A stretch of 64,000 bases of DNA from contig JAAHFN010000003.1 of NCBI GenBank assembly GCA_010672965.1, positions 124,001-188,000 on the forward strand, written 5' to 3'. Under the pieces are notes generated by a model. The model had not been told where the DNA came from, made no database searches, and saw only the letters and a list, made by a program, of their open reading frames with translations. Position numbers and translations under genes: made by a program. Shown here piece after piece: positions 2,646 through 63,083 of this stretch. This DNA is from Oscillatoria sp. SIO1A7 (GTDB taxonomy: Bacteria; Cyanobacteriota; Cyanobacteriia; Cyanobacteriales; Laspinemataceae). Each line of letters begins with the position of its first letter. Within the stretch, counting starts at the first letter, position 1.

Positions 2646-2944
2646 AAAAAGTAGTACCTCCTAATCGGGACAATATTCTAAAAATAGACTCAGCTTACGA
2701 AGACAAAAATTAACTACAATGCAAAAACTTGAAGCCAAAGATTAAGCATCATAGCATTTCTCAAATTAGTATATAGATGCGGAACGGCTGAAACCCTTGT
2801 GGTGACTTTAAATCACACATATATTTGAAACTGACTGCACTGTTTTTAATTGGGAATCGTTCATAGAAAAAATCGGCCTGATAGATTTGTTAGCTTAAAA
2901 TAATAATTTGACTATAAAATAGAATGTAAAAAATATTGACAAAA
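2646..2944. other. AT-rich intergenic stretch with a half MITE
   Basis: About 300 bases with no convincing open frame on either strand. It contains a strong AGGAGGT (minus strand, 2656-2662) serving the gene to its left. Near 2750-2775 is TAGCATTTCTCAAATTAG, resembling one terminus of the MITE-like element at 10438-10589. Nothing else was recognised. Confidence 0.4.
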
Positions 2945-3181
2945 TCAATTGTTATCAATTCCCAATTTTATTCTTGAGTCGTACATTGATTGAGCTATAA
3001 AATAGCCGTATTCATCTTGCAACTTTTCCGACAAATGCAATATTTTGGGCTCCCCTTTATAAAAAATACGAATTTCTGAACCATCAAGATTGCAATGGTA
3101 AATTGTTGGCTCAGAGTTTGTGACTTGGGGATAAACGACTACTCTCCAGCCTCGCTCGATATAAGAATCTGGATAAAGTGG
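2945..3181 (-). pseudogene. remnant open frame without a start codon
   Basis: A frame of 78 codons ends with TGA at 2945-2947 and is bounded upstream by TAA at 3182-3184. It reads like real protein (PLYPDSYIERGWRVVVYPQV ... RIFYKGEPKILHLSEKLQ ... AQSMYDSRIKLGIDNN) but has no ATG, GTG or TTG in its first half. This suggests the 3' end of a gene whose 5' part was lost or shifted out of frame. It lies among other fragments just inside the left side of the island. Family not recognised. Confidence 0.4.
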
Positions 3182-3467: not shown

Positions 3468-3542
3468 TGCCCCTGGCAAGACTCGAACTTGCAAACATCC
3501 CAGGTTTGAGCTGGTCACCCGTACCACTTAGGTCACAGGGGC
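3468..3542 (-). tRNA. tRNA-like gene, anticodon reads CAA
   Basis: The minus strand folds as a 75-nt cloverleaf. Acceptor GCCCCTG pairs with CAGGGGC, followed by discriminator A. The T arm is GCAAG-TTCGAGT-CTTGC. The D arm ACCT..GGGT carries GG in the loop. The anticodon loop CTCAAAC gives CAA (reads UUG, Leu). The anticodon stem has four pairs plus an A-G mismatch, and the long variable arm of normal bacterial tRNA-Leu is absent. This makes it an atypical, perhaps accessory or decaying tRNA. A tRNA 5' half lies directly upstream. Confidence 0.6.
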
Positions 3543-3576: not shown

Positions 3577-3752
3577 TTGGCCGCTCGAAAGCATTTTCGT
3601 CAAGCGTGGAGCCTTCGATTCCATCCTTAGCATATCAAATTTTCTCAGGAAACAACAACTCTTCCGTCTCACCTCCCCACTAATCTTATATTTTTGCCAT
3701 CGTGTCAGGCAAGAAGCGGCTCCCAGTATTACGTTTTCCGCAGAAAAGTTTG

Positions 3753-4259
3753 TTATTTATTGCGCTTTTTCCAAAAAGAAACAGTCCAATCTGCAAAGTA
3801 GTGACTAGCCGCTCCAAGCTCTAACCCTATTGCTGCCCAAGTAAAAAGCAAAGGGTATTTTGAAATCGCGCTTATTGCCCATTTTATAAGTCTGATTGTT
3901 GCTAGTTGACTTTCGGGGAGAAAAATTAGCTGGATGACCGAAGCTGGCGCTGTGGCGGCTAAAATTGCGACCCCGAGGTAAAGAATTCTGCCGCACGTTC
4001 CGATTATTGGGCCGTGCGACACCCAAGATCTGTGCTTGACCCGCTTTTGGTAAGGCAGCCATATCCAGCGCAGCCAGCACCATCGCAAGTATTGCCGGGA
4101 ATAAATGTCCAAGTCTGGCCCGAACATGAAGCCGCTGAAGGCAAAACTTACTACAGTCATGCTGGAGATCGCGAGGTCTTTGGTAACTATTCCCGAAAAA
4201 ACTGCGATCGCTAGCGTTGCTACCTTCGTAATTTTGTCGTGCGTTTTTCCCGAAGGCAT
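3753..4259 (-). CDS. DUF2227 membrane protein (putative metal-binding)
   Basis: A 168-residue protein matching the cyanobacterial DUF2227 family. It opens with MPSGKTHDKIT, followed by FMFGPDLDIYSRQYLRW and KHRSWVSHGPIIGT. The conserved His and Asp residues (H7, the D-D pair in GPDLD, the SHGPIIGT histidine and a late SHYFAD) resemble the metal-dependent membrane hydrolase pattern of YdjM/YwqD-like proteins. Two or three hydrophobic stretches suggest an inner-membrane location. It is the only clearly core-type protein in this stretch of the island. The family is confident; activity is not established. Confidence 0.75.
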   Translation of the reverse strand: MPSGKTHDKITKVATLAIAVFSGIVTKDLAISSMTVVSFAFSGFMFGPDLDIYSRQYLRWCWLRWIWLPYQKRVKHRSWVSHGPIIGTCGRILYLGVAILAATAPASVIQLIFLPESQLATIRLIKWAISAISKYPLLFTWAAIGLELGAASHYFADWTVSFWKKRNK

Positions 4260-4294
4260 CGATTTTTCTCCAGATTCACTTAAAATAATTCCCG

Positions 4295-4516
4295 CTAGTC
4301 TTCATCAAACCAACCTTCATCTACGAGCCGACTAATTTTTTTAGAAACGTACCGGCTCCAGTCAGAAAATCCACTTTTGCCCACGTCTATGTGCATGACT
4401 CGGGGGATGCCCAACAAGGCGCGCCCCGCGTTGACGAATTCCCTGCGCGCCCCTTTGAGCAAGTCTCTCGCTTCGTCGAAGCTCTCTCGCGCTTTTTCTA
4501 GTCTTGTAGCTTTCAT
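4295..4516 (-). CDS. small helical protein of unknown function
   Basis: A 73-residue protein starting at ATG 4516 behind GGAGAGGAAA (the longer frame to 4585 overlaps the upstream gene and lacks a ribosome site). The sequence MKATRLEKARESFDEARDLL is charged and helical; the C-terminus (WSRYVSKKISRLVDEGWFDE) is acidic. No family recognised. It is the last gene of the FtsK-like run, 14 bases after the HNH gene, and probably cotranscribed with it. Confidence 0.6.
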   Translation of the reverse strand: MKATRLEKARESFDEARDLLKGARREFVNAGRALLGIPRVMHIDVGKSGFSDWSRYVSKKISRLVDEGWFDED

Positions 4517-9656: not shown

Positions 9657-9662
9657 ATAGAA

Positions 9663-9733
9663 AGCAGAGGTAGGAATTGAACCTACAAAGTGCGGCTTAT
9701 GAGACCACCAAGCAACCATTGCTTAACTCTGCT
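9663..9733 (-). tRNA. tRNA-Met (CAU), elongator type
   Basis: A complete cloverleaf on the minus strand. The acceptor is AGCAGAG/CTCTGCT. The D arm AAGC-AATGGTT-GCTT is followed by the anticodon stem GTGGT/GCCGC (two wobble pairs) with loop CTCATAA (anticodon CAT), then the T arm GTAGG-TTCAATT-CCTAC. 71 nt without the discriminator. CAT could also be a modified Ile2 tRNA; loop sequence favours Met. Confidence 0.75.
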
Positions 9734-9736
9734 CCG

Positions 9737-10747: not shown

Positions 10748-10820
10748 GCGCCCTTGGCCGAGCGGTTTAGGCAGCGGACTCATAATCCGTTCCAGGGTGG
10801 TTCAACTCCACTAGGGCGCA
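10748..10820 (+). tRNA. tRNA-Met (CAU)
   Basis: A standard 73-nt cloverleaf. The acceptor is GCGCCCT/AGGGCGC with discriminator A. A D arm with GGCCGAGCGGTTTAGG is followed by the anticodon stem GCGGA/TCCGT with loop CTCATAA (anticodon CAT), and the T arm has loop TTCAACT. It is the only plus-strand tRNA here, unlike the minus-strand set at 9.4-9.8 kb, and looks like a normal chromosomal gene. Ile2 identity cannot be excluded. Confidence 0.88.
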
Positions 10821-15262: not shown

Positions 15263-15847
15263 TTAAGAGCGTTTGTCTCCAATCCAAAAAGCAATCGCGC
15301 AGAAACCTAAATAAAGCTCGAATGCTTTTTGAAATTCTTCAATTCTGTCGCCGCCGCCATAAACCAAAAGGCTGTCGAAAGGCGCTTGCGTTGGCGCTCC
15401 TACAAATTGAACTCTATGGTTAAAAACGCCATAACAAGCGGTTATGGGCAGCAAATTTCTAAACCATTGAGTTCCTTGGGCGTTTCTTGCCAGCAAGAGA
15501 AACTCTCCAATCGTCTCGCTCCGCATTTTATTTACCACTTGTCGCATCATGGAGTATGGCGGGTTTAGCCATACTTGCGGCAGATGGGGCGCTACTCCCC
15601 AAACTTGGACTAGCCCGTTTTCTTGTTTCGTAATTTTTCGTTTTGCCGGAACTAACGATTTTTCCCCGTCACTAAACGGATCTAAGTCGATTTTTTCTAA
15701 AAAATTATCAGCAGCGTCGATAATGTATTGGGGAGTTTGCCAATCATCAGACCCTTCTCCAGTTCTGGCACTAGAAACTTGAACGCGGAAAGATTGTTTG
15801 ATTTGTCGAGCTGCATTGTGTTCGGGAAAAAGCGATAGTTGTTTCAC
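15263..15847 (-). CDS. phage-type N6-adenine DNA methyltransferase
   Basis: 194 residues matching the phage Dam (DNA N-6-adenine-methyltransferase) family. GSDDWQTPQYIIDA is at ~33-45, LDPFS at 55-59, and the catalytic motif IV VWLNPPYS at 92-99 (NPPY). The C-terminal half contains PFDSLLVYGG. It would transfer a methyl group from S-adenosylmethionine to adenine N6 in DNA, often to protect phage or plasmid DNA from restriction. No restriction nuclease adjoins it, so it appears to be a solitary methylase. The length is normal and the gene looks intact. Confidence 0.88.
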   Translation of the reverse strand: MKQLSLFPEHNAARQIKQSFRVQVSSARTGEGSDDWQTPQYIIDAADNFLEKIDLDPFSDGEKSLVPAKRKITKQENGLVQVWGVAPHLPQVWLNPPYSMMRQVVNKMRSETIGEFLLLARNAQGTQWFRNLLPITACYGVFNHRVQFVGAPTQAPFDSLLVYGGGDRIEEFQKAFELYLGFCAIAFWIGDKRS

Positions 15848-15872
15848 TTTTTGGCTTCCTTATTGTCATTTT

Positions 15873-16060
15873 TTAGCTTTGTAGATCGCTTTCCATCAAA
15901 AGCTTGAGTTCTTTGGGGTCGCCAATTTCAACGGCGTGTCTATCCATAGCCTCTGATTCCCAAGCGACCCAGTAGTATTTCTCGCGCCATACCCCGAGCT
16001 GTGAGAATGCAAATACTTTCCATCTTTTCTTAGCTTTTTTATCGGAACAAGGTTAGTCAT
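15873..16060 (-). pseudogene. small gene needing a -1 shift at A-AAA-AAG
   Basis: ATG 16060 opens MTNLVPIKK and then reaches the heptamer A-AAA-AAG in the frame used for -1 slippage in bacterial dnaX. The zero frame continues as an unconvincing 54-residue peptide (stop at 15896-15898). The -1 frame continues as AKKRWKVFAFSQLGVW, REKYYWVAWESEAMDRHAVE and ends LLMESDLQS (stop 15873-15875), far more protein-like. Either programmed slippage or loss of one A. The joined product of 62 residues has no recognised family. Confidence 0.5.
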
Positions 16061-16114
16061 TTTGAAATATTTTTACTCGTTGGCATTTCTACAAAACACA
16101 AAAGCGCGCGATCG

Positions 16115-16336
16115 CTAACTTACAAAACGTTTTATGTCATTCATAGAGCGCGGAGCAATCAAGCGAGCGACTTCTTCGTAATAGTTTTCCCAGTCTTGCT
16201 CGCTAGCAGTGGAGCAGCAGGGTGGCGGCACCAATTCGTGTATCCAAGCGCCCCACTGTGAATGCTCGAACCAAGGAGGCGGCATTTTGCTTTTAAGAGC
16301 CCGTAGCTCTTTCAAATCGAGGCAAGGGTAATTCAT
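16115..16336 (-). CDS. small Trp/Cys-containing protein, copy 1 of a duplicated pair
   Basis: 73 residues (MNYPCLDLKELRALKSKMPP, ... ELVPPPCCSTASEQDWENYY ... MNDIKRFVS). It differs from the protein at 23054-23275 at only five positions, so the pair is a recent duplication or under strong constraint. Conserved PPPW and PPPCC motifs and acidic charge are visible; no known family. It is preceded, about 135 bases upstream, by a copy of the TTGATTGAAAA leader box. Confidence 0.6.
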   Translation of the reverse strand: MNYPCLDLKELRALKSKMPPPWFEHSQWGAWIHELVPPPCCSTASEQDWENYYEEVARLIAPRSMNDIKRFVS

Positions 16337-16469
16337 GTCTGCAAATATTTCCTTAAAATTGGTAGCGTGTCTTTTGTATAAATAGCCAGCCAGTTGCTTT
16401 TGATTGTGAAACTGTTAATAACAAAATAGTTTTGATTGACAGTTTCATTTTTAAGTTTTAAAATGATTC

Positions 16470-16489
16470 GGATATTTTTCAATCAATAT
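16470..16489 (-). promoter_or_regulatory. leader box TTGATTGAAAAaTATCC, copy 1
   Basis: The minus strand reads TATTGATTGAAAAATATCC, one of four similar boxes (others at 23348, 23817, 25447). Each lies upstream of a small minus-strand gene. Here the spacing to the start codon is ~134 bases rather than 61-73. Confidence 0.45.
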
Positions 16490-16517
16490 AAAACGAGCTT
16501 TTAGCTTAAGCTCTTAT

Positions 16518-16718
16518 TTACGCCGAGGCCGGAATAGCGCGATACCTTGTTTTCCCGGCAAGCCCCCCACCCAAAAACGGTTCAAAATACCTGTTTATCT
16601 TTTCGGGCAAATAGGGCTCAATCTGCCCGAGTAATGCCCGCTTTCCGCCCACCCATTTGAGGAAAGGAGCGGGCGGAACTACTTTATAAATTTCAGGATC
16701 GAATAAAACTAGTTGCAC
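16518..16718 (-). pseudogene. truncated Dam-type (D12 class) adenine methyltransferase
   Basis: The frame begins [20 protein letters not shown] then [20 protein letters not shown] and YFEPFLGGG, the N-terminal AdoMet-binding part of a D12-class DNA adenine methylase (usually ~270 residues). After ~51 residues it runs out of frame into the 3' tail of a gene like 23391-23750 (that tail reads [13 protein letters not shown] in a shifted frame) and stops at 66 residues. The catalytic DPPY motif is missing, so it cannot methylate. The break marks a recombination junction. Confidence 0.8.
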
Positions 16719-17119
16719 GTTATTTGCTCCTCAAAATTTATATCGCCCTTGATTGTTTTGCCTTTGTAATACTTATTAAAAGTTAAATCTTCGGGAAACG
16801 TATAAGTTTTAACAGGTAAGCGCAGAGGAAAAGCACTAATGCCTGCTTCGGCTAAAGCAGTCATTATTTCTGGGCAAGGGTCGTAATCTACAAACACGCA
16901 TTCAGGGTTTGTACTACTAATTATTTGTTTTAGACTTTTCTCAAAGTCAGCAATTTGTTGTTGGCTCAAGTTTTTGTTGTCGCTACTAAAATATGCGGCA
17001 AAATAGTCTTTACCATAGCCAATGTCGTGTTGTGGAGTTGTTTTTAATTGAGCCGACCACCACTTGGCGATCGCTCTTGCTTTTTGCGCTAAGCTTAAGC
17101 TTGCTATTTCTTGTCGCAT
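16709..17119 (-). CDS. unknown protein
   Basis: 136 residues ([20 protein letters not shown] ... [20 protein letters not shown] ... [20 protein letters not shown]). An N-terminal helical region, then an alpha/beta-looking segment. Its 3' end overlaps the truncated Dam start by ten bases, so the two were once coupled. No family recognised; an accessory role in DNA modification is possible from context only. Confidence 0.5.
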
Positions 17120-17146
17120 AACTTTTATAATTCCTCTTGCTCGTCT

Positions 17147-17344
17147 TTACCAAAATTGTATGTAAGCGGTAGTTCTGTCAATCCAAGATACGCGAACAGT
17201 TTGTTCGCAATCATCGCAATTTATTTGGTCAAATAGACATAATTGATAGTCTTTTTGACAAGATGCGAAGCAGCTCCGCCGAATAGTTCTATATAGCAAC
17301 CATGTTCGGGAAACTTGGATGCAATCTATTTCCCTATCCGCCAC
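17147..17344 (-). CDS. possible small Cys-rich protein
   Basis: 65 residues with five cysteines in the middle (CFASCQKDYQLCLFDQINCD then DCEQTVRVSWID), which could coordinate zinc. It sits between two better-supported genes with 27-31-base gaps, in the same direction. No known family; translation is plausible but unproven. Confidence 0.4.
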   Translation of the reverse strand: MADREIDCIQVSRTWLLYRTIRRSCFASCQKDYQLCLFDQINCDDCEQTVRVSWIDRTTAYIQFW

Positions 17345-17375
17345 TTCCCTCCATAGTAAAGAAAAGCTGGGTGAT

Positions 17376-17858
17376 TCATGGCTTTATTATTTTCATCATC
17401 AACAACAGGCCAAGGTTTTTACTTTTGTCTATTTTGCGCCATCCGGCTTTTTTAAAGCAATAACCGGGATTGGGACTTTCGACAAACCTCGGATCCACAT
17501 AAGTGAAAGCGCATCTCGGCCAGTTCGGATGGCACTCCACTAGCACTTTTTCACATTCCAAAATAATTTCGCTTGAAAGGCGCTTTCCCTCGTTTCGGAA
17601 CAGCGTGCATTCAGGAAGCCCGCCTAGGCCGTCTCTTCGGTATTCCTGTCGATTCCAACAATATAGCCAGCCTTCATCCTCATTTAGAATAATTATGCTT
17701 TTACCAGGCGGCATTATGCGATCGCCCGATCTATTTCGCACGACTCGGGAGTAATGCCTATTTGCGATCGCTGCTGCTGCAGGGTTTCCATTCTTTACTA
17801 TTCTCCAAGATGGAAACCCTAAAGGCAGCGATAATTGCCGGTATTGGCTTGCCATCAT
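17376..17858 (-). CDS. GNAT-like protein with Mom-type features
   Basis: 160 residues. After a short lead comes AIANRHYSRVVRNRSG, then SIIILNEDEGWLYCWN, LPECTLFRNEGKRLSSEIIL, a beta/helix segment (CAFTYVDPRFVESPNPGYCF) and KKAGWRKIDKSKNLGLLLM. The NRHYS segment, the 'FRNEG..LSSE' stretch and the 'GYCFKKAGWR' end resemble GNAT-fold acyltransferases of the phage Mu Mom group, which convert adenines in DNA to modified forms. The start codon overlaps the stop of the DUF5131 gene (ATGA), so they are coexpressed. The Mom link is suggestive, not certain; a generic phage acetyltransferase-like protein is the alternative. Confidence 0.5.
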   Translation of the reverse strand: MMASQYRQLSLPLGFPSWRIVKNGNPAAAAIANRHYSRVVRNRSGDRIMPPGKSIIILNEDEGWLYCWNRQEYRRDGLGGLPECTLFRNEGKRLSSEIILECEKVLVECHPNWPRCAFTYVDPRFVESPNPGYCFKKAGWRKIDKSKNLGLLLMMKIIKP

Positions 17859-18622
17859 GCAACTGGGTCAAGCTTGCGATTGACAGGTCGCAACTGCTTG
17901 CCATTCCATTTCTGACAATGCGTCTCCCAAGCCTCCGGCATTTCTTCCCAGACTTCGCCATCCAAATGCCGCCCTCCGGCTTTCGGCGTTCTACCGCCGA
18001 CTTGCTTGAAGAAAAACGCCACTTCCGCCGCCCGACATTGTTCGCGAATATCTCGCGCCCAATCCAAGTCTATCGGACGGTGTTTCGGTCCGGACTCGCC
18101 CCCTACAATCACCCAGTGAATATCGGTTAAATCCAGTGCTAGCGGCCCCAGTAGTGGTTCGCAAGACAAAAACCGCACTGCTGCCGGAACCCGTCGCAAG
18201 CAGTCAACTCGCTTGACGTATTGTTGACTTTCAACCGATACGCCCATCCAAACATTGTCCGGCCATTCTAGTTGAGACGATAGCTCTACTAGACGATCGT
18301 GCCTTTTCGTCAAAATTTGATAAATGTGCCAAGGAGTCTCGCGGATTGTCTGAAAAGCCTCTTGCAGAAAGTCAATATCCATTTGTTCGTGAAAGAGATC
18401 GCTCATGGAGTTCACGAATATGCGCTTTGGCTTGCGCCAGGTTTTTGGCTTGTCTAAACGACCTGGGTGCTTGGTAAACTTAAATCCATTTGGAAACCCA
18501 TTGGGGAATCTCTTAGTCATTGATTCCGCGTAGCAATGAGCGCAACCGGGGCTGACTTTGTTGCAGCCAGTTGTAGGATTCCAAGTTTCATCTGTCCATT
18601 CTATGCCAGTATGCGTATTCAT
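17855..18622 (-). CDS. DUF5131 family (phage Gp37/Gp68) protein
   Basis: 255 residues clearly of the Gp37/Gp68 family. GIEWTDETWNPTTGCNKVSP then GCAHCYAE holds Cys20, Cys27 and Cys30, a radical-SAM-like cysteine triad. Further family segments are FVNSMSDLFHEQMDIDFLQ, YQILTKRHDRL, NVWMGVSVE and HWVIVGGESGPKHRPID. Members occur in phages and mobile elements; their reaction is unestablished, but the Cys cluster suggests an iron-sulphur enzyme. Directly coupled to the Mom-like gene and next to a C5 methyltransferase, so involvement in nucleic-acid modification is an attractive inference. Confidence 0.85.
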   Translation of the reverse strand: MNTHTGIEWTDETWNPTTGCNKVSPGCAHCYAESMTKRFPNGFPNGFKFTKHPGRLDKPKTWRKPKRIFVNSMSDLFHEQMDIDFLQEAFQTIRETPWHIYQILTKRHDRLVELSSQLEWPDNVWMGVSVESQQYVKRVDCLRRVPAAVRFLSCEPLLGPLALDLTDIHWVIVGGESGPKHRPIDLDWARDIREQCRAAEVAFFFKQVGGRTPKAGGRHLDGEVWEEMPEAWETHCQKWNGKQLRPVNRKLDPVA

Positions 18623-18750
18623 ATTAATTCAAGACTATTTTGATTGGAGCTTGTCGTACTTTGAACCTATTCTAATGACTCTATGTGCTAGTCGTAGCCT
18701 CTTATGAGGTTTCTCATTAGTGGTAATAATTTAACCATTTGCTTGCAATT

Positions 18751-19869
18751 CTAAGCTACAGCATCTAGCACTGGACGCCACATTTTTTCAATAAGCAGCG
18801 GCGGCACTCTATTGCCTAAAATTGTAACTTGCTGGGATTTTGTTCCAATTAATTTGTAGGAATCTGAGACTCCCTGAAGCCGCGCGATCGCTCGCGGGCT
18901 CAAAGCTTTGACCTTAATTTTAAAATCGTCCTGTTGTTGTAAAACTTTCCAAGAACGTTTCTGTTGAGAAGCGGCGATCGCAATAGATGGCTGACTTGGC
19001 GATCGCGAATAGCATTCCTTTCTTTGGAAACAAGCAAGTAAGGCATCAAACAAGTGCCAAGTCCTAGAAAGTTCTAAAGCTCTTACCGTGGGGCTGGGCT
19101 GTTCTGACGAACGAATGGAAAATTTCTTTACATTTGCGCCCGCCCTAGGCAGCAAGGCTGGCAAAGAACTCTCGGCTAAGGCAGTGGAATCAAGAACCAT
19201 TCTCATCTGCCAGTCAGCAAGATGCGACTCTGATTCTTTTTCCAGCAAGTCCGCCACCGCACTATACCAGCCGCTGTGAAGCTCTTTTTTTGGCTCTAAA
19301 CCAAACCAAAACTTTTGACCGAATAGACCGGGGGCTAGTGCCGCTCCCGCTCTTAGCTTGCAGGATAGCTCGTCGGCGACCGCCCTCCATATCAAGCGCT
19401 TGCGATTTTGGGGCAGTCCAATGCTGCTGCAATCTACTACGGACTCATTAAGCTAATAACCTAATTTCCACAAAACAAGACGCAATTTTTCGGCCTCGGC
19501 GCTTTTGGAAAACCTGGGCACTTCTTCAAGAGAAATTAGCAAGGGCTTTATCTGCCGAATTAATTCTATGCTAGCGTCAATTTCTGAGGCTATGCTAGGT
19601 CGAACTTTTTTTCTGTTAATATTAGCCGCTGCCGAAAAAGACTGGCAAGGCGGGGATAGATGCAATAAGCAATCTAGAGGAGCGATCGCGCACAGGCGGC
19701 TTATGCTATTAGACACTTTGTCTTGAAAAACAGCAGAGTTGGGAAAATTAGCCTGGTAAGCAGAGCAGGCGGCCGGAGAAATATCAACCGCAGCAAGCGC
19801 CTCAATTCCTAGATTTTGAAATCCCCAAGAAGCAAGACCTCCACCACCAAACAGATCTATTAGTTTCAT
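18751..19869 (-). pseudogene. C5-cytosine DNA methyltransferase interrupted by one in-frame TAG
   Basis: The frame from ATG 19869 runs MKLIDLFGGGGLASWGFQNL (motif I), SPPCQSFSAAA (catalytic Cys75) and ISLEEVPRF (ENV motif altered to EEV), then meets TAG at 19453-19455 after 138 residues. The same frame continues without any shift through LPQNRKRLIWRAV (motif VIII) to GNRVPPLLIEKMWRPVL (motif X), ending at 18751. Read through, it would be a 372-codon enzyme of normal size. It is therefore a recent nonsense mutant, an amber-suppressed gene, or two complementing halves. The TAG is followed by C, a leaky context in some systems. Confidence 0.8.
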
Positions 19870-23018: not shown

Positions 23019-23053
23019 TTTTGCCTCCGTTGCAAGATTTATTAATTTACTAG

Positions 23054-23275
23054 CTAACTTACAAAGCGTTTTATGTCATTCATAGAGCGCGGAGCAATCA
23101 AGCGAGCGATTTGTTCGTAATAGTTTTCCCAGTCTTGCTCGCTAGCAGTGGAGCAACAGGGTGGAGGCACCAATTCGTGTATCCAAGCGCCCCATTCGCT
23201 ATGCGCGAACCAAGGGGGCGGCATCTTGCTTTTGAGAGCCCGTAGCTCTTTCCAGTCGAGGCAAGGGTAATTCAT
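23054..23275 (-). CDS. small Trp/Cys-containing protein, copy 2
   Basis: 73 residues, 68 identical to the protein at 16115-16336; the two coding regions and parts of their 5' leaders (CTTATTTGCG.. tail and TTATTAATAACAAAA) are also alike at base level. Features as for copy 1: PPPWF, GAWIHELVPPPCC, NDIKRFVS. A leader box lies 73 bases upstream. The strict retention of two copies suggests function. Confidence 0.6.
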   Translation of the reverse strand: MNYPCLDWKELRALKSKMPPPWFAHSEWGAWIHELVPPPCCSTASEQDWENYYEQIARLIAPRSMNDIKRFVS

Positions 23276-23347
23276 GTCTGCAAATATTTATTTGAGATTG
23301 GTGGTTTGCTGTTCTTGGAATTATTAATAACAAAACACGACCTACTG

Positions 23348-23366
23348 GGATAATTTTCAATCAATA
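23348..23366 (-). promoter_or_regulatory. leader box, copy 2
   Basis: Minus strand TATTGATTGAAAATTATCC, 73 bases upstream of the start codon of the 73-residue gene at 23054-23275. Confidence 0.45.
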
Positions 23367-23390
23367 CAAAGGGAGCTTTAGTTTAAGGTC

Positions 23391-23750
23391 TTATTTGCGT
23401 CGGGCTCGAAATAGCGCGATGCCTTGTTTTTTCGGCAAACGCCGCTGAGTTTTTTTGACTTTTCGTTTTTGCGCGATCGGTACAACTTTTGTTGTGTGCC
23501 TTGTTTCCCAAATTTCGGAAGTTCCGTAAACTTTTGGGTAGCACAACTGGGCATACTTCAATAGCCCTGCTTGCTTCAATGCTTGTTTTATTTCTGCTAA
23601 GTTAGGCTTTTGTCCTTTGCAGGCAGCGTACCCCAAACAAAAGCCGTTTATTGCAGCCGCCCTTTCTATTGCTGCCTTTTCTATCTCGATGTTAGTCCAA
23701 TCGGGGTGAATTGTTCTAAGGTGTGTTTCTAATGCTTTAAAATTGCTCAT
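23391..23750 (-). CDS. unknown basic protein
   Basis: 119 residues from ATG 23750 behind AGGAG. A helical N-terminus (MSNFKALETHLRTIHPDWTN) and a strongly basic tail (QKRKVKKTQRRLPKKQGIAL then FRARRK) suggest nucleic-acid binding. The DNA encoding the tail recurs at the end of the truncated dam frame (16518-16560), so the tail plus downstream gene was duplicated as a block. Confidence 0.55.
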   Translation of the reverse strand: MSNFKALETHLRTIHPDWTNIEIEKAAIERAAAINGFCLGYAACKGQKPNLAEIKQALKQAGLLKYAQLCYPKVYGTSEIWETRHTTKVVPIAQKRKVKKTQRRLPKKQGIALFRARRK

Positions 23751-27359: not shown

Positions 27360-28964
27360 TTATATACTATCCACTAAAAGCGAGTATTCTTGGTACAGCA
27401 CTTCATACTTTTGTTTGAGATTGATTTGCGAGCCTTTAGCGCGTAGATACTTTTGCAAGTCGCGGTAGCTGATTTTGTTGGCTTTGTCAGCATTAGAATT
27501 AAACTTGTTGCTGTTTTTCGTCTTTTTAGGCTCGCTAGACTCATCGGCTATCCAGTTGCGACCTTTGGCAACGGTACGATTAAAAAGCTCTAACAACTTG
27601 ACATCTTTAAAGTAAATGTGCATCGTTCCCACTTTAAACACTCGAATGTCAAAAAAGTAACTTTCGATAATTTGCCGGTAGTCGCGCTTCCAAAAACCAT
27701 CGCGCATAACGTCTTCTACTTTGCCAGGTAAATCGCCGTAACTTTTGCCTAACAAATAGCAAAGGACTTTCTCTAGATCGGTTAAAAAATTAACCGTTTT
27801 AGGGCAATGGTAACTGCCAAACCACCATCCAGTCTTAGAATCGTACTTTACCGCATTGGGAATAATAATTCGGCGTCCCCACTTCCAATGCTTATTGCTT
27901 TTGCGGCTAAAGTAATGTATTGGATTTTTGTCGCTAAAGCTGCAACCTTTGTCAAACACCTGTTGAGCAGAGTCTAGCATAACTTGGTCGCGAGTCTGGA
28001 AAAATAAATCCAGACATTCAAGAACATTGACAACATTAAAAGCCATGCATTGTTGTTGCCGGACGAATTCATCCCATTTAGACTTAAAAGCAGAAGTTGC
28101 CATTGCTGCTAATTGAGTTCTGTCAAACACCTCAGACCAAAACGAGCGCTTAATAGCTTGCAGTGCTTCATCAAATGTAACTGGGGCGGTCAGGCTTCGG
28201 TCTATATGACGCTTGTTGTTCAAACTGTCTAAAGCCCAATTAAGTTTTTGTTGAGACAAATACCTTTCCTTTAGAGCATTTACGGCCAAATCGTAACTAG
28301 CCACCAAACTCTCTATCATGTTGCGTCGGGCGAGTGGATTGCTAATGTACTCTTCCGAGTTTAAATCGTCTTGTTCCATCCGCCCGAGGCTAGCTTGAAA
28401 TTCATAAAGTTGTTCGGGCTTTGCAAGAGTGACAAGAACAACTTCAACATCAGTAGGTATTTCTGCACCTTTAAACGGTTGCCCCAAATCTTCGCAGTTG
28501 CCGTATTGGTCGATTAAAGCTCTCAACGCCTTTGTCTTGCTGTTTCGTTCGCGATCGGCTACCGAGTTAGCATTTAGCAAGCACCTAACCATTCCTCCTG
28601 GGAGCAGTAATTCCCAGGCATGGAGTAAATGTTCTATGCCTTTGTTAAATGGAGGGTTCATCACTATTAGCCCAAACTGGGTTTCGTTATAGCTGAGAAA
28701 ATCGCTATCCAGTACCCTGTAGCCCTTTTCGTGCAGCGCAGCTCTGCGGGCAAAATCCAGCTCTATGACATTTATTTTTTCGCAAGATTCGCAGCGCTTG
28801 CTCAGTTCGTCGGCTATATGACCCATGCCAGCCGACGGCTCCAATATTGGGCTCTTAAATTGCTTGACGGGATAAGACCGCCCGCTTATAGTTTTAGAAG
28901 CTATTAAGCCTTCAAGCAGCTTTGATATAACGGGTTTTGGCGTTGGAAAAAATTGCAGGTTCAT
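27360..28964 (-). CDS. N6-adenine-type DNA methyltransferase with DUF4942 region
   Basis: About 534 residues from ATG 28964 (MNLQFFPTPKPVISKLLEGL); the longer frame to 29042 begins with TTG. The AdoMet motif reads SPILEPSAGMGHIADEL, motif IV is FGLIVMNPPFNKGIEHLL (NPPF). The C-terminal ~300 residues (FDEALQAIKRSFWSEVFDRT, ... SNKHWKWGRRIIIPNAVKYD ...) match the DUF4942 type found in phages and plasmids. It would methylate adenine in DNA and appears intact; no cognate restriction enzyme is adjacent. Hairpin leaders lie upstream. Confidence 0.8.
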   Translation of the reverse strand: MNLQFFPTPKPVISKLLEGLIASKTISGRSYPVKQFKSPILEPSAGMGHIADELSKRCESCEKINVIELDFARRAALHEKGYRVLDSDFLSYNETQFGLIVMNPPFNKGIEHLLHAWELLLPGGMVRCLLNANSVADRERNSKTKALRALIDQYGNCEDLGQPFKGAEIPTDVEVVLVTLAKPEQLYEFQASLGRMEQDDLNSEEYISNPLARRNMIESLVASYDLAVNALKERYLSQQKLNWALDSLNNKRHIDRSLTAPVTFDEALQAIKRSFWSEVFDRTQLAAMATSAFKSKWDEFVRQQQCMAFNVVNVLECLDLFFQTRDQVMLDSAQQVFDKGCSFSDKNPIHYFSRKSNKHWKWGRRIIIPNAVKYDSKTGWWFGSYHCPKTVNFLTDLEKVLCYLLGKSYGDLPGKVEDVMRDGFWKRDYRQIIESYFFDIRVFKVGTMHIYFKDVKLLELFNRTVAKGRNWIADESSEPKKTKNSNKFNSNADKANKISYRDLQKYLRAKGSQINLKQKYEVLYQEYSLLVDSI

Positions 28965-28995
28965 AAAATTTCTCGCGTATGTGTTTTTTTGATGT

Positions 28996-29125
28996 CGGGC
29001 AATTTGTAGGAAGATGCCTGCCGGTTGCCGATTATTAGCCAATCTTTGCTGGCTTGAAAATTGGCTATGCCGCGCTGCTAACCCATTGGGAGATGTCGGA
29101 CGGGCAATTGTAGATAAAGTGCCCG
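28996..29125. promoter_or_regulatory. leader hairpins, copies B and C
   Basis: CGGGCAATTTGTAGG...TGCCTG (28996-29020, one wobble pair) and CGGGCAATTGTAGATAAAGTG followed by CCCG (29101-29125) belong to the GGGCA-ATTTGTAGATA-TGCCC family. Both lie between the stop of 29139-29615 and the start of the methyltransferase gene. Confidence 0.5.
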
Positions 29126-46756: not shown

Positions 46757-49700
46757 TCAATGCTCTTCTCTACAGTTCGGTGGAGTTAATGCCGGACTAT
46801 AGGGGGCAGACCCAGGAGAGCCAGCAGTTAAAATAACATCGCCATTCTCATCAATTCGCCACCCGGTCGCTTCGACAATTTGTCTGGTTTCTTGTCTTTC
46901 TAGAAAAGATCCGCTTTCCGAGGATTGTCCGCCTGCTGAGGAAACTGTTGGAAAAGACCTATCGATTATTCGCCTAGAATTGATTGGCCTAGAATTGATT
47001 GGCCTAGAATTGATTGGCTTAGAATCGATCGAGCTATCGGAAGATGCGCCATTCTCTCGGGTTGCCCATTCTATGGCCATAACTGGATTGCTGAGGGGGT
47101 CGAAGGGGCTTGGGGGCAAGCCGCCGCGTCCGGTCATAATAAATTCACTCTGTTCTTCTTGGTTGCAAGGATCTCGCGCCACCAACCCGGTAATATCGAC
47201 CACGGTTTCTGGCAATTTTATTAAGCCAGCGCCGGGGTCAACCTCTGGGGTATTGATTTCGACAACGCCTCTAAACTGGGGACCGAGTTGGGAAGTGGCA
47301 GTAATATCGCTATTACGGGTTCGTCTTTCTTGGAACTCTGTGCCAAAAATACCTTCGGCATTGATGCTGACTCTACCGCCAAAACCCGTTTGGGCATTGG
47401 CGCTGATGTCGCTATTTTCTAGAGCCGCTAGAGTATTGGTATCGATTGTGATATTGCCGCCATTGCTGTTTCTGGCGTTGGTGGAAATTATGCTGCGCCG
47501 GCGCAACTGTATGTTAGGTGCTTGAAGAACAATATTACCCCCGAACCCCGAGGCGGTGGCAGCCATAAGATTGGTTCTTCGGTCGAGTAAGATAAAGTCA
47601 GCTACAATTGTGAGAGTGCCAGCACTTCCAGAACCTATACTGCCTGCATTGAGCTGTGCCCTATCCCGAGCAATAAATTGCGGCGTGTTAATTTCGACGC
47701 TGCCAGCGCTTCCAGAACCATCGAGAGCGTCAGAAACTATGCCAGTGGGAACCGAGGCACCCGGTGGCGTAGAGCTTACTTCTACTAATTCAGAGGCGAT
47801 CGCCACCACATTCCCCGCAGTTCCAGAATCCGATGTAGCATTTCCCAACAATGCTCCATCCCTTAGAACTAAGCGAGCTACGTCAATCTGAATGTCTCCT
47901 GCCCTTCCAATCCCCGATGTAGAAGCGCTCATGCCGCCGCCAATCATTTCCACTTCTTCAGCGCGGACGTTCAAGCGACCTCCCGTTCCCTCGTCGAATG
48001 CAGCGGCAGATATAATTGCTCCATCATTAATGACGATATCCTTAGCGTCAATGGTAATATCTCCTGCAGCTCCAGCTATTTCCGTGCCAGTAAATAAGCC
48101 GGTTACTCTATCGGATAGGCGCAGAGTTTTATTGACAAAATTATCAATTATAACCCTCTGCATTTCTGCAAAGCCAATGCCGACTAATTCTACATTGCCC
48201 TTGGCGACTATTGTTAAATCTCCACCCTGGCCGGTACCAAAGCTGGATGCAGATACCAAACCCCTATCTATAACTTGCAAGCGATCGGCGTGAATAGTTA
48301 AGTTTCCTCCCGCTCCGGCACCCCTAGCATCGCTAACTAACTGGCTCAAAAACCGACCGTTATCGGCAGCTCTGCTGACTGCAGAGCCTCTGACTCGTAC
48401 AACTTCTTCGGCAGTTATGCTCAGATTGCCGCCCCGACCGATTCCCTCGGCGAGCGTCGATACTTCTGCCCCATCTCGAACAATTAACGAGCCGGTTTCA
48501 ATTGTCAAATTGCCGCTATCGGCATCAGTAAAAGTAGCGCTCCTCAAAGCGCTGGGAAACTTACCGTCTGGCGAAATTCCGCTAAGTTCCACTTTTTCAG
48601 AAGCTCTAACGAGTAAGTCCCCTCCGGTGCCGCCGTTACGAATAGTCTCATCTCCAGAAAAGAATCCGCTGGAAGTGGAGACTACTGCGCCATCTTCAAT
48701 AATGAGCGATCTGGTGTTAATGCTAACTTTACCGGCGGGGGCGTGACTATTAATAGAGTTGGCTACTATGCCAGTGCCGACGATCGCATTTGTCGGTCGC
48801 GATCGCAGCTCTATAGATTCCGTTGCTCTTACGGTCACGTTGCCACCCCTGCCAGAACCCAAAGTAGTATTTCCCAGGAATGCTCCATCCCGCAGGAGCA
48901 ACCTCGCCGTATCTACCTCAATATTTCCTGCCGATCCTGCATCTAAGTTGGACGCGCCAAAGACCGAGCCACTGAGTTCTATTGCTTCGGAAGCTCGGAC
49001 ATTAATACTGCCTCCAGTTCCCTCCGCAAAGGAAGGAGTAAATACTAAAGTCCCATCTTGCGCCCTAAAAGATGGAGTTTCGACTGCGATATCCCCGGAA
49101 TCTCCCGTACCTTCCGTGCCAGTAAATATTCCCGTTACTCGCTCGGAAAGCGTCAGATCTGCAGACAGGAAACGGCCGATCGAATCTCTCTCGAAATCTT
49201 CGAATCCAGTTCCCATAAGCTCTACGGATTCCGAGGCGCGGACGCTAATATTTCCGCCGTCACCAGCTCCAAACGTCGAAGCCGATAAAAATCCTCCTTC
49301 CGCTAGAAGCAGCCGCCCGGTTGCGATAGTTAAATCTCCACCGGCTCCCGCCCCTTGGGTTTCAGTCGATATCTGAGAAGGCACTAGCCCGTCTGCCGAG
49401 TTACCTATTACTTCCACTGACCGGGCAGCATTTATCCTCAGCGGTCCTCCGGCTTGGTCTCCGGAGGTAATCCCCACTAACTGCGAACCATCTCTAACCG
49501 ATAGTTTTCCTGCCACTATATCTATGCTACCGCCACCGACCCCACTGGTACTTACGTTGCTTTCCCGGGTCAGCTCTATATTTCCGAATTGGCTATTGCC
49601 TATTGGGACGCTTTCTAAGGAGCTATTTTGCTCTTGCCCGAATTCCCAGAATCCATCGGTTAGGGATATTAATTCTATTTTTCCCACTGGAGCATCGATC

Positions 49701-50359
49701 GCCCCCCCTTCTATACTTATATCTCCCCCAACTAGCCCTATGGTTTCTCCGGGTTGCACTGATAGCCCGACTGTATTGCCGTTACTATTGCTAGCTCTGG
49801 ATTGATTGATTATTTTCCCTGGCGACGCTCCGAGTTGCAACCCCAAAGGTACGTTGATAGTCAGCATTGGCGGCGGATTTGGAGAGGTGGCGCTGAAATC
49901 GCTGCCGTCAGATAATCTCAGGCTATCTGCCGTACTGGCAAAAAAAGAACCGCCAATATTTAGCGCTGCATTCGGTCCAAAAACAATGCCGTTGGGATTG
50001 AGCAGGAATAAGTTTGCCCCTGAGTTGGCTCTGAGTACGCCGTCAATATTGGATATCGACCCTCCCGTGACTCGGGTTAGGATGTTTTCTATGGTTAATG
50101 AGTTATTAAAGTAAGCCTCGCCCCCAGTGGGAACTGAAAATTCCTGAAAGCTGTGAAATAAGTTTCCTCCTATCGGGGTTCCCCCTTCTATTAATAGGGT
50201 GTTGCCGTTGGGAGTAACAGTTGAGTTTATTGGTAGCGTGCTGTCGGGAACTATTTGCGCTGATGTCTTCTCAGGAGACATCCAATAGCCGACTGCTAGC
50301 AGACAGCTTAGAAAAACGAGCCAGTGTTTTTTTGGGTAATTGGGATGAGAGGGTTTCAT
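46757..50359 (-). CDS. TpsA-like filamentous haemagglutinin-type protein
   Basis: 1200 residues. Signal peptide (HWLVFLSCLLAVGYWMSPEK) then a haemagglutination-activity (TPS) domain: LFHSFQEFSVPTGGEAYFNN, TRVTGGSISNIDG and NLFLLNPNGIVFGPNAALNI. The middle is a long beta-helix of repeats with IEDGAVVSTS / VRDGAEVSTL units. Near the C-terminus are five-residue repeats INSRP. Such proteins are exported by a TpsB partner and act as adhesins or surface structures. The TpsB gene is not adjacent. Closely paralogous to 50501-54985. Confidence 0.88.
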   Translation of the reverse strand: MKPSHPNYPKKHWLVFLSCLLAVGYWMSPEKTSAQIVPDSTLPINSTVTPNGNTLLIEGGTPIGGNLFHSFQEFSVPTGGEAYFNNSLTIENILTRVTGGSISNIDGVLRANSGANLFLLNPNGIVFGPNAALNIGGSFFASTADSLRLSDGSDFSATSPNPPPMLTINVPLGLQLGASPGKIINQSRASNSNGNTVGLSVQPGETIGLVGGDISIEGGAIDAPVGKIELISLTDGFWEFGQEQNSSLESVPIGNSQFGNIELTRESNVSTSGVGGGSIDIVAGKLSVRDGSQLVGITSGDQAGGPLRINAARSVEVIGNSADGLVPSQISTETQGAGAGGDLTIATGRLLLAEGGFLSASTFGAGDGGNISVRASESVELMGTGFEDFERDSIGRFLSADLTLSERVTGIFTGTEGTGDSGDIAVETPSFRAQDGTLVFTPSFAEGTGGSINVRASEAIELSGSVFGASNLDAGSAGNIEVDTARLLLRDGAFLGNTTLGSGRGGNVTVRATESIELRSRPTNAIVGTGIVANSINSHAPAGKVSINTRSLIIEDGAVVSTSSGFFSGDETIRNGGTGGDLLVRASEKVELSGISPDGKFPSALRSATFTDADSGNLTIETGSLIVRDGAEVSTLAEGIGRGGNLSITAEEVVRVRGSAVSRAADNGRFLSQLVSDARGAGAGGNLTIHADRLQVIDRGLVSASSFGTGQGGDLTIVAKGNVELVGIGFAEMQRVIIDNFVNKTLRLSDRVTGLFTGTEIAGAAGDITIDAKDIVINDGAIISAAAFDEGTGGRLNVRAEEVEMIGGGMSASTSGIGRAGDIQIDVARLVLRDGALLGNATSDSGTAGNVVAIASELVEVSSTPPGASVPTGIVSDALDGSGSAGSVEINTPQFIARDRAQLNAGSIGSGSAGTLTIVADFILLDRRTNLMAATASGFGGNIVLQAPNIQLRRRSIISTNARNSNGGNITIDTNTLAALENSDISANAQTGFGGRVSINAEGIFGTEFQERRTRNSDITATSQLGPQFRGVVEINTPEVDPGAGLIKLPETVVDITGLVARDPCNQEEQSEFIMTGRGGLPPSPFDPLSNPVMAIEWATRENGASSDSSIDSKPINSRPINSRPINSRRIIDRSFPTVSSAGGQSSESGSFLERQETRQIVEATGWRIDENGDVILTAGSPGSAPYSPALTPPNCREEH

Positions 50360-50500
50360 AAGTTAGCCGCCTGAATCTCAGAAAGGAGTGATAAGCACCG
50401 GCATTCGCCGCTTGGGGCGATCGTGGCGCGATCGCCCACGGTAGTTTCGGTCGTTTTGGCGTCGAGTCGGCTTCTGCAATGCAATAATGGGAGCCCCGCC

Positions 50501-53500
50501 TCAGCGCCCTTGTCCGCAGCTCGGCGCAGTCAGTCCCGAAGTCCTGGGGGCAAGATTGGGCGAATCGGCTGTTAAGATAATATTCCCTTCTTCATCTACT
50601 CGCCACCCAGTCGCTTCTATAATATGTCTGTTTTCTGAATGTCGGTTTTCTGGATGTCGGTTTTCTACAAAATATTCCCTTTCTGTGGATTGTTCTTCTC
50701 TTGAGAAAGCTGTTGAATTTGAGCTATCGCTCCCTCTTGCCCTAGCATTGCTCGCCCTAGCATTGCTCGCTCTTGCATTGCTCGCCCTTGTATTGCTCGC
50801 CCTAGACACCCCAGCAGAGGTCGCCGCCTCTCGGGTTGCCCATTCTATAGCCATAACTGGATTGCTCAGTGGGTCTAAAGGGCTTGGGGGCAAGCCACCG
50901 CGTCCGGTAATTATAAATTCGCTCTCATCTTTATGGTGGCAAGGATCTCTCGCCACCAGGGCGGTAATGTCCACCACGGTTTCTGGCAATTTTACCAAGC
51001 CTGCACCGGGGTCAACCTCTGGGGTATTTATTTCGACAACGCCGCTAAACTGCGGACCGAGTTGGGAAGTAGCGGTAATGTCGCTCTTGGGGGTTTGTCT
51101 TTCTCGGAAGGATGTGCCAAAAATACCTTCGGCATTGATGCTTACTCTGCCCCCAAAACCAGCTAGAGCATTGGCGCTAATGTCGCTATTTTCTAGAGCC
51201 GCTAAGTTGTCGGTTTCTATGGTGATGTTGCCGCCATCAGAAGCTCCTGCATCGGTTGATATTCCGCTGTTTCTACGCAATTGTAAATCCGGGGCAGTTA
51301 AGTTTATATTTCCTCCTTGGGCTGCGTTGGGAGAAGCAGTCATAGTACTGCGATCGTCGAGTATAATTTTTCCGGCGATCGCTGTAAGGGCTCCTGCATT
51401 TCCGCTTCCCAAACTATTAACCGCCACTGTAGCTCCATCGGTAACTAGCAAATCTCCCCCTATAATCGTCAAGTCTCCAGCGGCACCAGTGGGTTGAGTT
51501 GCAAGAGCAGGATCTCCAGAAGCCGCCAACAAGCTGCTGGTAAAGCGACCGTCTCCCGAGCGACCTGTTAATAGCACTGTTTCTGATGCCTCTATTGTTA
51601 AACTTCCTCCCTGCCCGGAACCTAGAGTAGCAACGGATATCTCTGCTCCATCCCGGACTGTCAAATTTCTAGTAGAAATCCTCACCTGTCCCGCATCACC
51701 AGAACTAAAACTAGCAGCACTTACTTGGCTGCGGAAGTTGCCAGAGACGCCGCTGACTTCCACACTTTCCGAGGCTCTGACCTCTATATTTCTCCCTTTA
51801 CCTCCCACATTTATGATGCTATCTCCGATTAACAGACCAGTCCTGGTTGAGAGACTTGCCCCATCTGCGATGCTCAACCGAGCCGTATCGATTTCAATGT
51901 TTCCCCCTGCTCCCGTACCGCCAAAAGTATCGGAAAATATACCCGTGGCAAACAAAGCGCTAGCTAGCGCCGAACTCAGTTCCACACTTTCGGAGGCTCT
52001 GACGACGATATTGCCGCCGGCTCCCTCATCTATTGTAGAGGCAGCTATTATTGCCCCATCCCTTACAATCAACTGCGCCGTATCAATCTCAATGTTACCG
52101 GCCGCTCCACTACCTAAGGTGGAGGCACCTATACCTGAGGCGCTTGTTTCTATTTTGTTGGCTTGGATAGCAATTCGACCCCCCTGTCCCAAACCAAACG
52201 TAAGAGCGGATACGATCGCGCCATTGGCAACAGTCAACTGCTGAGTATTAATCGTTATGTTACCGGCTGCTCCAACACCTGCCGTCCCAGCGAATACCCC
52301 CGTTATTCGGTCGGACACCCTAAGGGTTCCATCAAAAAATCTCTGATTGATGTTCTGCCTGAAGTCTTCAAATCCCACTCCAATTATTGCTACTTCTTCT
52401 GAGGCACGGACGGTAACATCCCCTCCCGCACCGTCGCCAAATGCAGAAGTAGATATCTCTGCCCCATCTCGGACAATTAACCTTCCCGTATTAACAGTGA
52501 CTTTTCCTGCAGGAGCAGAGGTGTAAGTTGTACTGCTTAAAGCGCTGCGAAACTGACCGTCAGGGGACATCCCGGCAATTTCCACTTCCTCTGTGGCGAT
52601 CGCTTCTATATTTGCACCCGCCCCGCCCGTTCGGATAATATCGTTTCCGGTAAAAAGCCCACTACTAGCTGACACCCTAGCTCCATCTCTAACAATTAAC
52701 CGACCCGTATCGATCTGGATGTTTCCCCCCGCTCCCGTACCGCCAAAACTCTGGGCAAACATCCCCGTGCCAACTATTGCCCCTGCTGGGGTTGAACTCA
52801 GTTCCACCTTTTCGGAAGCTCTCACCAAGATATTCCCGCTGTCGCCGGAACCCACGCTAGAGTTTCCTAATAGTGCGCCATCGCGCAGCAACAACTGAGC
52901 CGTATCAATTTCTATATCTCCTCCGGCTCCATCGCTTACTGTAGAAGCGGTAACCATAGAGCCCAGAGCATCCACTTTTTCCGCACGGATAGCAACCCGC
53001 CCTCCAGTTCCCGAACCAAATGTAAGAGCGGACACTATCGACCCATTTTTCAACATCAAATCGGTAGTTTCAATTGTAACGTCTCCCGATGCGCCCGAAC
53101 CCGAACTCAAAGCAAACAAACCAGTTGTTCGGTCGGCTTCCGTTAGAGTTTCATTGACAAAACTAGCGATAAAATCTCTTTCAAATTGCTCGAATCCAGT
53201 TCCCCGCAGCTCTACTGATTCCGAGGCACGGACGTTAATATCTCCCCCTGCGCCAGCTCCAAACGTCGAAGCCGATAAATATCCTCCCTCTGCCAGAAGC
53301 AAGCGCCCAGTTTCTATGGTTAAATTTCCACCGGCTCCCGCCCCAGTTATATCCGTGGCCAAATTGCTAACCAATTGACCGTCCCCTGAAGTCCCCCGCA
53401 CCTCTACCGATTCCGAGGCAACAATGGTCAGATTACCGCTATTGCCGCTGCCATTCGTTCCTGCTGATATCTCTGCTCCATCCGTGACAATTAAAGAGCC

Positions 53501-54985: not shown

Positions 54986-55244
54986 GATTTCACAAACCAG
55001 AGGATAACAGTGGCTCCCGAAGATCCTCAATTCTGGGCACAATTTTGGTCAAAGAGGAGCCCAGCAAGGTATTGGCTGTTGCTGTATAGCTGGTTATTGA
55101 GGCAGCCAGTTCGCGGAAAAGCTCCGCGAGCGATCGCCAGTTATGGCCACAAGGATCGCCCTTGGTCGGGAGGAGCAAAATTTATATCCCAAGGATATCA
55201 TAATTTCCCTCCCTTAATCCTTCCTCCTTTTCCTACATCCGAGT

Positions 55245-60078: not shown

Positions 60079-60119
60079 GGGAATTGAGAATTGGGAATGG
60101 GGCATGGGGCATGCTCATT

Positions 60120-61433: not shown

Positions 61434-61529
61434 TATAAACTTTATAAATTTCTTTACATTTCTCAATATTTTATAGCATATCTTAATGGGGGCATGGGGA
61501 ATTGGGAATGGGGGGATCCTTCGGCAAGC

Positions 61530-61682
61530 TCAGGAGGGACTTGGGGAGTGTGGGAAGGGTGGGAAGGGTGGGAAGGTGCTGCCGCCGCCGCCGCCGAGGA
61601 CGCCGGTAATAAAGTATCTGCCATCGGCCAATAGCTGTTGCGGTTGCCAGAGCTTGGTTTGCCAGAGTTGCGAGTCAGTCAT
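61530..61682 (-). pseudogene. truncated N-terminus of the kinase-FGE gene
   Basis: ATG 61682 opens MTDSQLWQTKLWQPQQLLAD GRYFITGVLGGGGG, the first ~34 residues of the kinase at 58366-60078, then runs into repeat-derived STFPPFPPFPHSPSPS and stops at TGA (61530-61532). It lies directly downstream of the second transporter copy, as the full kinase gene lies downstream of the first, so it was made by the tandem duplication. Confidence 0.85.
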
Positions 61683-61724
61683 GGGAATTGAGAGTTGGGA
61701 ATGGGGCATGGGGGCATGCTCATT

Positions 61725-63038: not shown

Positions 63039-63083
63039 TATAAACTTTTCTTTACATTTATCAATATTTTATAGCATATCTTA

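Follow-up and report, generated by a model that had tools for sequence, protein, structure and literature searches.

Gene content and state of the cluster

The DNA analysed here is a stretch of 64,000 nucleotides from Oscillatoria sp. SIO1A7 (assembly GCA_010672965.1, contig JAAHFN010000003.1; G000:C106:124001-188000 in our numbering), which we call the window, and it carries a cluster of DNA-modification genes centred on a Mom-like gene and a DUF5131 gene. The genome measures 9.08 Mb in 182 contigs. It is cyanobacterial, because 15 phycobilisome matches were found genome-wide and 70 copies of GCGATCGC were observed in the window against 1 expected. A preliminary description had listed a phage N6-adenine methylase, a Dam remnant, a GNAT/Mom-like gene coupled to a DUF5131 gene, and a C5 methylase. 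All of these genes are present where it had placed them, on the minus strand, and their family matches are far beyond chance. The features are as follows (ORF, open reading frame; SAM, S-adenosylmethionine).

15263-15847, minus strand: phage N6-adenine methylase (PF05869, phrog_111); open frame with Pfam and PHROG matches
16114-16561, no strand: repeated segment, with a copy at 23053-23438 (92% over 251 bp, 84% over 93 bp)
16518-16718, minus strand: Dam (D12) remnant; N-terminal profile match to PF02086
16709-17119, minus strand: ORF of 136 amino acids between the Mom-like gene and the Dam remnant; PHROG match (phrog_8937, function unassigned)
17376-17858, minus strand: Mom-like GNAT of 160 amino acids (phrog_24928); PHROG match, predicted model and alignment
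17855-18622, minus strand: DUF5131 protein with a predicted radical-SAM fold; PF07505 (E 1e-96) and predicted model
18751-19869, minus strand: C5-cytosine methylase, interrupted; ORFs 19453-19869 and 18751-19395

Along the direction of transcription the order is C5 methylase, DUF5131, Mom-like gene, phrog_8937 ORF, Dam remnant, an ORF of 73 amino acids and PF05869 methylase. The start of the Mom-like gene and the stop of the DUF5131 gene overlap in the letters ATGA, as had been described. The match of the N6-adenine methylase to PF05869 is over the cut-off (E 3.4e-15) and covers profile positions 7-131 of 169, and the motif NPPY is present in frame.

The C5 methylase is one frame broken by a single in-frame TAA. 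The gene had been listed without this break; it is present, and it is probably dead because the stop splits it into the two ORFs. In the Dam remnant only positions 1-33 of the 253 in PF02086 are matched. The homology stops at residue 53, at about nucleotide 16560. Directly there the duplicated segment starts, its part 16470-16561 being 84% identical to 23348-23438, so that duplication or recombination probably severed the gene. The nearby ORF of 73 amino acids falls in the part of the segment that repeats 23053-23302 at 92% identity. Although the cassette has partly decayed, its central Mom-like/DUF5131 pair is intact. The preliminary description had pointed to phage Mu, in which Dam controls the expression of Mom. 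We found such control unsupported here, because Dam is truncated at the duplication junction to an N-terminal remnant; the match to Mu Com in the window is at chance level (E 0.37).

The Mom-like family and its methylase company

The AlphaFold2 model of the Mom-like protein (33 sequences) has a GNAT fold, with a predicted local distance difference test score (pLDDT) of 87.9 and a predicted template modelling score (pTM) of 0.83, and by this predicted fold the protein belongs to the GNAT superfamily. The best 50 of 355 Foldseek rows were acetyltransferases (best E 9.9e-4). In the VIA comparison, Mu Mom (8bv8, by its title the inactive S124A mutant) ranked third, with Z 12.4, 3.6 Å over 139 residues and 12% identity. 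Sequence searches for solved relatives of the protein or its profile gave nothing meaningful.

Kinship with Mom itself was examined by structure, family model and profile, and several results weigh against it. Many generic GNATs tie with Mu Mom in VIA, so the match of fold is not Mom-specific, and 8bv8 is not among the best 50 of 355 Foldseek rows. Against BFVD, none of the best 50 of 534 rows was named Mom; the names were acetyltransferase or GNAT, uncharacterised or miscellaneous. The Mom family model PF25680 was not matched by the window protein at E 0.1, nor by three relatives at E 1, whereas Mu Mom itself matches it at 2.4e-75; likewise phrog_1384, the PHROG of Mu Mom, was not matched. 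When the profile of 129 Mom-like sequences was compared with that of 13 Mom sequences, the match was weak (E 0.029 as a single comparison, probability 1.7%), as it was in an earlier, smaller comparison (E 0.091, probability 0.6%). Membership in the Mom family is not supported. The alignment of the two profiles nevertheless runs in register across most of the domain (HYS with HYS, TYVD with SFAD, GYCFKKAGW with GVVYQASNF). In this weak match H35 and Y36 align with H58 and Y59 of Mu Mom, and S124 of Mu Mom pairs with S95 in the larger comparison and with S96 in the smaller one. Because fold and motifs agree while the Mom family models are unmatched and the profile match is weak, we use the name "Mom-like" rather than Mom. 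The earlier GNAT/Mom-like label is supported by the predicted GNAT fold and by the place of Mu Mom among the three best VIA matches; assignment to PF25680 or phrog_1384 is not supported.

The protein belongs to phrog_24928 (E 1.1e-24; function unassigned), with one further PHROG match at E 0.25, and the searches of Pfam, NCBIfam and PADLOC gave no match at the limits set. Relatives occur in 6 of 50,697 phage records, in 36 viral loci, in 43 and 73 loci that two further queries gave on partly shared contigs, and in 3 GTDB contigs found by a scan with one 7-residue pattern. After removal of repeats, 129 distinct loci were obtained, the window included. The tree was built from 128 of the 129 rows, one short or stop-containing row being dropped, and the set of 123 loci used for counts of neighbours leaves out the window, the genome locus G041, the three GTDB contigs and one phage record. 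In cyanobacteria the gene is rare: among 386 genomes spanning the phylum it was found in two, the present one and one with 7% contamination; among the 14 genomes of its family it was found only in its own.

Motifs of the window protein are HYS (35-37), FRNE (87-90), S95 S96, T119 and GYCFKKAGW (132-140). H35, Y36, T119, G132 and C134 are invariant in the 129-row alignment, and S96 (99%), G139, R88, N89, E90 and W140 are conserved at 96-99%; position 95 is serine in 86% of the family. Of the 28 positions with at least 90% conservation, 23 are retained in the window protein, and the five that differ include none of the invariant and 96-99% ones. The family has not conserved the canonical acyl-CoA loop R/QxxGxG/A, which follows the central strand and leads into the helix after it: the model places the loop at 88-95, where R88 is found in 97-98% of rows, G91 in 38% and glycine at position 93 in 10%. 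Mom too is reported to lack the canonical loop.

The Mom-like genes are frequently found in the company of DNA methylases. In 4 of the 129 loci the Mom-like domain is part of a long open frame (993-1327 codons, against 308 for the next in length), and all four long fusions match a DNA methylase as well as DNA-helicase PHROGs (phrog_16, phrog_62). One of the long proteins observed is a phage protein of 1313 amino acids (L221:4987-8928) in which an intein-like insert accompanies a helicase, a Mom-like domain and an N6/N4 methylase. In 35/123 loci the Mom-like gene has a C5, Dam, PF05869 or N6/N4 methylase at most 1 kb away (the N6/N4 seed for neighbour counts being one C-terminal piece). A DNA methylase was present anywhere in the locus in 54/123 Mom-like loci and in 13/80 terminase loci (p = 3.5e-5), and Dam was near the Mom-like gene in 13/123 against 0/80 (p = 0.0019). 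The terminase set consists of relatives of one query, and Mom-like and control loci alike were gathered by exact peptide patterns. Two points reduce the force of these contrasts: the terminase loci are shorter on average (603 kb for 80 loci against 1248 kb for 123), and the frequency of Dam does not differ significantly from that at C5 methylase loci (2/62, p = 0.095). In Paenibacillus phage Lily, the Mom-like relative gp60 is directly followed by an N6A methylase and a C5 methylase, and in the phage contig L165 a D12 methylase stands after the DUF5131/Mom-like pair, like the Dam remnant in the window.

It may be asked whether the GNAT acts on DNA at all. It might instead acetylate a protein of the host, such as a subunit of RNA polymerase, and the company of methylases would then only reflect the early region of temperate phages. 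The tie of generic GNATs with Mom would fit this reading, as would the prediction, stated in PMC7824862, that many phage GNATs acetylate host proteins. The HYS motif, the non-canonical acyl-CoA loop and the fusions to methylases argue against it, and we regard it as improbable. The Mom-like family is likely a second phage GNAT group acting on DNA.

The DUF5131 protein and its partners

The DUF5131 protein carries the cysteine triad C20-x6-C27-x2-C30 that had been described, in which C27 and C30 are invariant and C20 is conserved in at least 90% of 57 rows. Its model (57 sequences) has a radical-SAM fold (pLDDT 93.2, pTM 0.89). Spore photoproduct lyase, a radical-SAM enzyme acting on DNA, supplied the six best matches both in Foldseek (E 2.4e-4 to 3.2e-3) and in VIA (Z 14.0-13.7, 2.9 Å, 193-195 residues). 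Viperins occupied VIA rows 7-15 (Z 11.5-10.7), rows 1-42 were all radical-SAM enzymes (Z 14.0 to 8.9), and a few other barrels appeared in rows 43-50. The Foldseek TM-scores with spore photoproduct lyase are low, at 0.45 or less, which counts against this match. By sequence, the protein did not match PF04055 (Radical_SAM) at E 0.1; it matched TIGR04471, "radical SAM mobile pair protein A", at E 2.7e-22, below the cut-off of that family, and searches for solved relatives of the protein or its profile found nothing meaningful. Judging from the model, the protein has a radical-SAM barrel fold with three conserved cysteines suited to a [4Fe-4S] cluster, in agreement with the iron-sulphur-type enzyme of the preliminary description.

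DUF5131 genes were found in the flanks of 8/123 Mom-like loci (8/127 in a larger count), and all eight match PF07505 far above the cut-off. They were near 0/80 terminase loci (p = 0.023) and 2/142 pooled controls (p = 0.048). In four of the eight flanking loci the gene is adjacent (at most 300 bp away), which has a binomial p of 5e-4 under uniform placement. Adjacent pairs are now seen in the window and in four phage contigs (L165, L195, L197 and L014). Their junctions differ: L165 has a GTGA overlap, L197 an overlap of 7 or 22 bases according to the start chosen, L195 an ATGA overlap with the gene order reversed, and L014 a gap of 57 bases. In the DUF5131 tree the five adjacent-pair genes fall in five different supported clades, as read by eye (the label test covered cyanobacterial rows only, and L014 and L028 are on long branches). 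The Mom-like genes of L195 and L197 have one starred clade in common. Since the DUF5131 partners come from different clades, the pair seems, from these sequences, to have formed on more than one occasion.

Other counts weigh against a fixed partnership. The eight flanking loci are a small part of 123. Their frequency does not differ significantly from the 2/62 of C5 methylase loci (p = 0.50), where the two positive loci, L334 and L338, may be one phage. Seen from the other side, a Mom-like gene is near only 1/80 viral DUF5131 genes, and L205 has a DUF5131 gene close to that of L165 and no Mom-like gene in its 12 kb. An obligate coupling was therefore rejected. The Mom-like/DUF5131 association is recurrent and facultative.

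Two further genes were observed beside pairs of this kind. In L197 a second radical-SAM gene (3653-4513; PF04055, E 1.7e-5, below cut-off) lies near the pair, and in L195 a DUF488 gene (2777-3115) stands immediately ahead of it.

DUF5131 genes are more widespread than Mom-like genes. One query found them in 161 of 50,697 phage records, and they occur in 73 of the 386 cyanobacterial genomes, in 69 of these over the cut-off. By a plain word count, the word DUF5131 is absent from the literature searched. In cyanobacteria the usual neighbour is TcmP (TIGR04474), which occurs in 56/386 genomes and lies beside DUF5131 in 25 of 30 stretches, these being the best-scoring loci of those found; its identity was confirmed for two of the neighbours. 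As TcmP is near only 1/80 viral DUF5131 loci, pairing with TcmP characterises the cyanobacteria in the sample examined. PADLOC lists TcmP with DUF5131 as the phage-defence candidates PDC-M30 and PDC-M41, and the window protein matches PDC-M41B at E 1.8e-105 and PDC-M30B at E 2.7e-102. PMC10855318 reports a prediction of PDC-M30, given without validation, for 32 of 100 P. aeruginosa strains; of these 32, 68.8% were phage-resistant.

The genome holds a second DUF5131 gene, on contig C128 (L311:5905-7841), which is 85% identical in DNA to the window copy and its sister in the tree. On this contig a gene that looks by eye like PIN/VapC lies between the DUF5131 gene and a C-terminal DUF5131 fragment. 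Because its sister is in the same genome, the window gene may be a recent capture. Between the two copies dN/dS, the ratio of nonsynonymous to synonymous change, is 0.13 over 238 codons; therefore selection kept the DUF5131 protein on at least one branch.

These observations lead to an alternative in which the pair consists of two unrelated cargo genes: the Mom-like GNAT would work alone on DNA, DUF5131 would have been captured from the host genome, where its family forms a candidate defence pair with TcmP, and their overlap would be an accident of insertion. The sisterhood with the C128 copy, the frequency of TcmP at cyanobacterial DUF5131 loci, the PADLOC candidates, the occurrence of Mom-like genes in 2 and of DUF5131 genes in 73 of the same genomes, and the facultative pairing would all be consistent with it. 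However, three other contigs also have overlapping pairs, with the two genes in either order and with DUF5131 genes from different clades. TcmP also had no match in this genome, hence neither DUF5131 copy there has such a partner. We consider the cargo explanation possible but doubtful.

A candidate base-modification pathway and its relation to known systems

The explanation we favour, tentatively and at a little short of even confidence, is that we see here a phage-type DNA-modification cassette in partial decay, whose intact GNAT and radical-SAM pair makes a hypermodified base. In this proposal the GNAT would bind DNA and transfer or position an acyl-type group at a base amine, the target most likely being adenine N6 as for Mu Mom. 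DUF5131 would employ SAM and an Fe-S cluster in a radical reaction on that nucleic acid or on the group that is to be added. The product would shield the DNA of the element from restriction nucleases, and the methylases nearby would guard further sites or modify that base as well. We infer DNA as the substrate, a base amine as the target and the cooperation of both enzymes.

A related idea comes from Elp3, in which radical-SAM and GNAT domains jointly modify uridine 34 of tRNA. The side group of the carbamoylmethyl-adenine made by Mu Mom is the same as that of an Elp3-pathway product. Because the two folds cooperate in Elp3, and because of this resemblance of the side groups, the pair could by analogy be a split, DNA-directed counterpart of Elp3 that places a group of the carboxymethyl or carbamoylmethyl type on a base of phage DNA. 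On this view DUF5131 would be a radical-SAM module of general use in modifying nucleic acids, with alternative partners, the Mom-like GNAT in phages and TcmP in the candidate defence systems. We think this version unlikely. Elp3 was not among the best 50 VIA rows for either model, which excludes nothing.

The same cooperation of folds in Elp3 might instead suggest that the pair modifies RNA, for example as a protection of tRNAs that come under attack in an infected cell. The window has two tRNA-Met genes near the cluster, and 3 of 60 listed DUF5131 phage records (161 in all) have an RNA methyltransferase feature under the match. The fusions of Mom-like proteins, on the other hand, are to a DNA methylase and a helicase, and the nearest structures to DUF5131 are spore photoproduct lyase and viperin. 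We regard an action on RNA as improbable.

If it is true that both enzymes act together, the favoured pathway would make a hypermodified base by a new route. The spore-photoproduct-lyase-like fold makes the chemistry of DUF5131 directly testable and provides a hypothesis for the defence candidates PDC-M30 and PDC-M41, and the Mom-like family adds natural fusions to DNA methylases.

Other features of the window may be recorded here. A protein of 560 amino acids (27360-29042) with a small methyltransferase domain and DUF4942 is another possible modification gene. One tRNA-Leu and two tRNA-Met genes (3468-3542, 9660-9734 and 10748-10820) may mark an integration site or be carried tRNAs. No integrase or structural gene of a prophage was found in the part of the window ORFs that was scanned. 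Two long adjoining genes at 46757-55042 (1200 and 1513 amino acids) have common blocks that are 84-91% identical and look by eye like surface proteins. A tandem duplication (59967-61488 and 61574-63086, 89.6%) involves a gene that resembles by eye a membrane transporter.

Among known systems, Mu Mom (PF25680, phrog_1384, 8bv8) has in common with the Mom-like protein a GNAT fold and occurrence in phages and, by the weak profile alignment, the HYS motif, a serine (aligned with S95 or S96) at the N-terminus of the helix following the central strand, and later motifs in the same order. It differs in length (241 against 160 amino acids) and in having ELNR...PRNSES where the Mom-like protein has FRNE-x(4)-SS; the Mom-like protein has an invariant C134, and no com gene beyond the chance-level match was found in the window. 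Spore photoproduct lyase (4fhg and others) has the radical-SAM fold and is the best structural match of DUF5131 (Z 14.0, 195 residues, 2.9 Å). Identity is 12%, DUF5131 has 255 residues against 340 in the solved chain, and its cysteines are spaced CX6CX2C rather than CX3CX2C. TIGR04471 is matched by DUF5131 over most of its length, yet the score reaches 79 bits against a cut-off of 355. The TcmP/DUF5131 pair (TIGR04474 with PF07505; PDC-M30 and PDC-M41) involves the same DUF5131 family, but in the window DUF5131 adjoins a Mom-like GNAT instead. Elp3 combines the same radical-SAM and GNAT catalytic folds, which here are encoded by separate genes amid DNA methylases.

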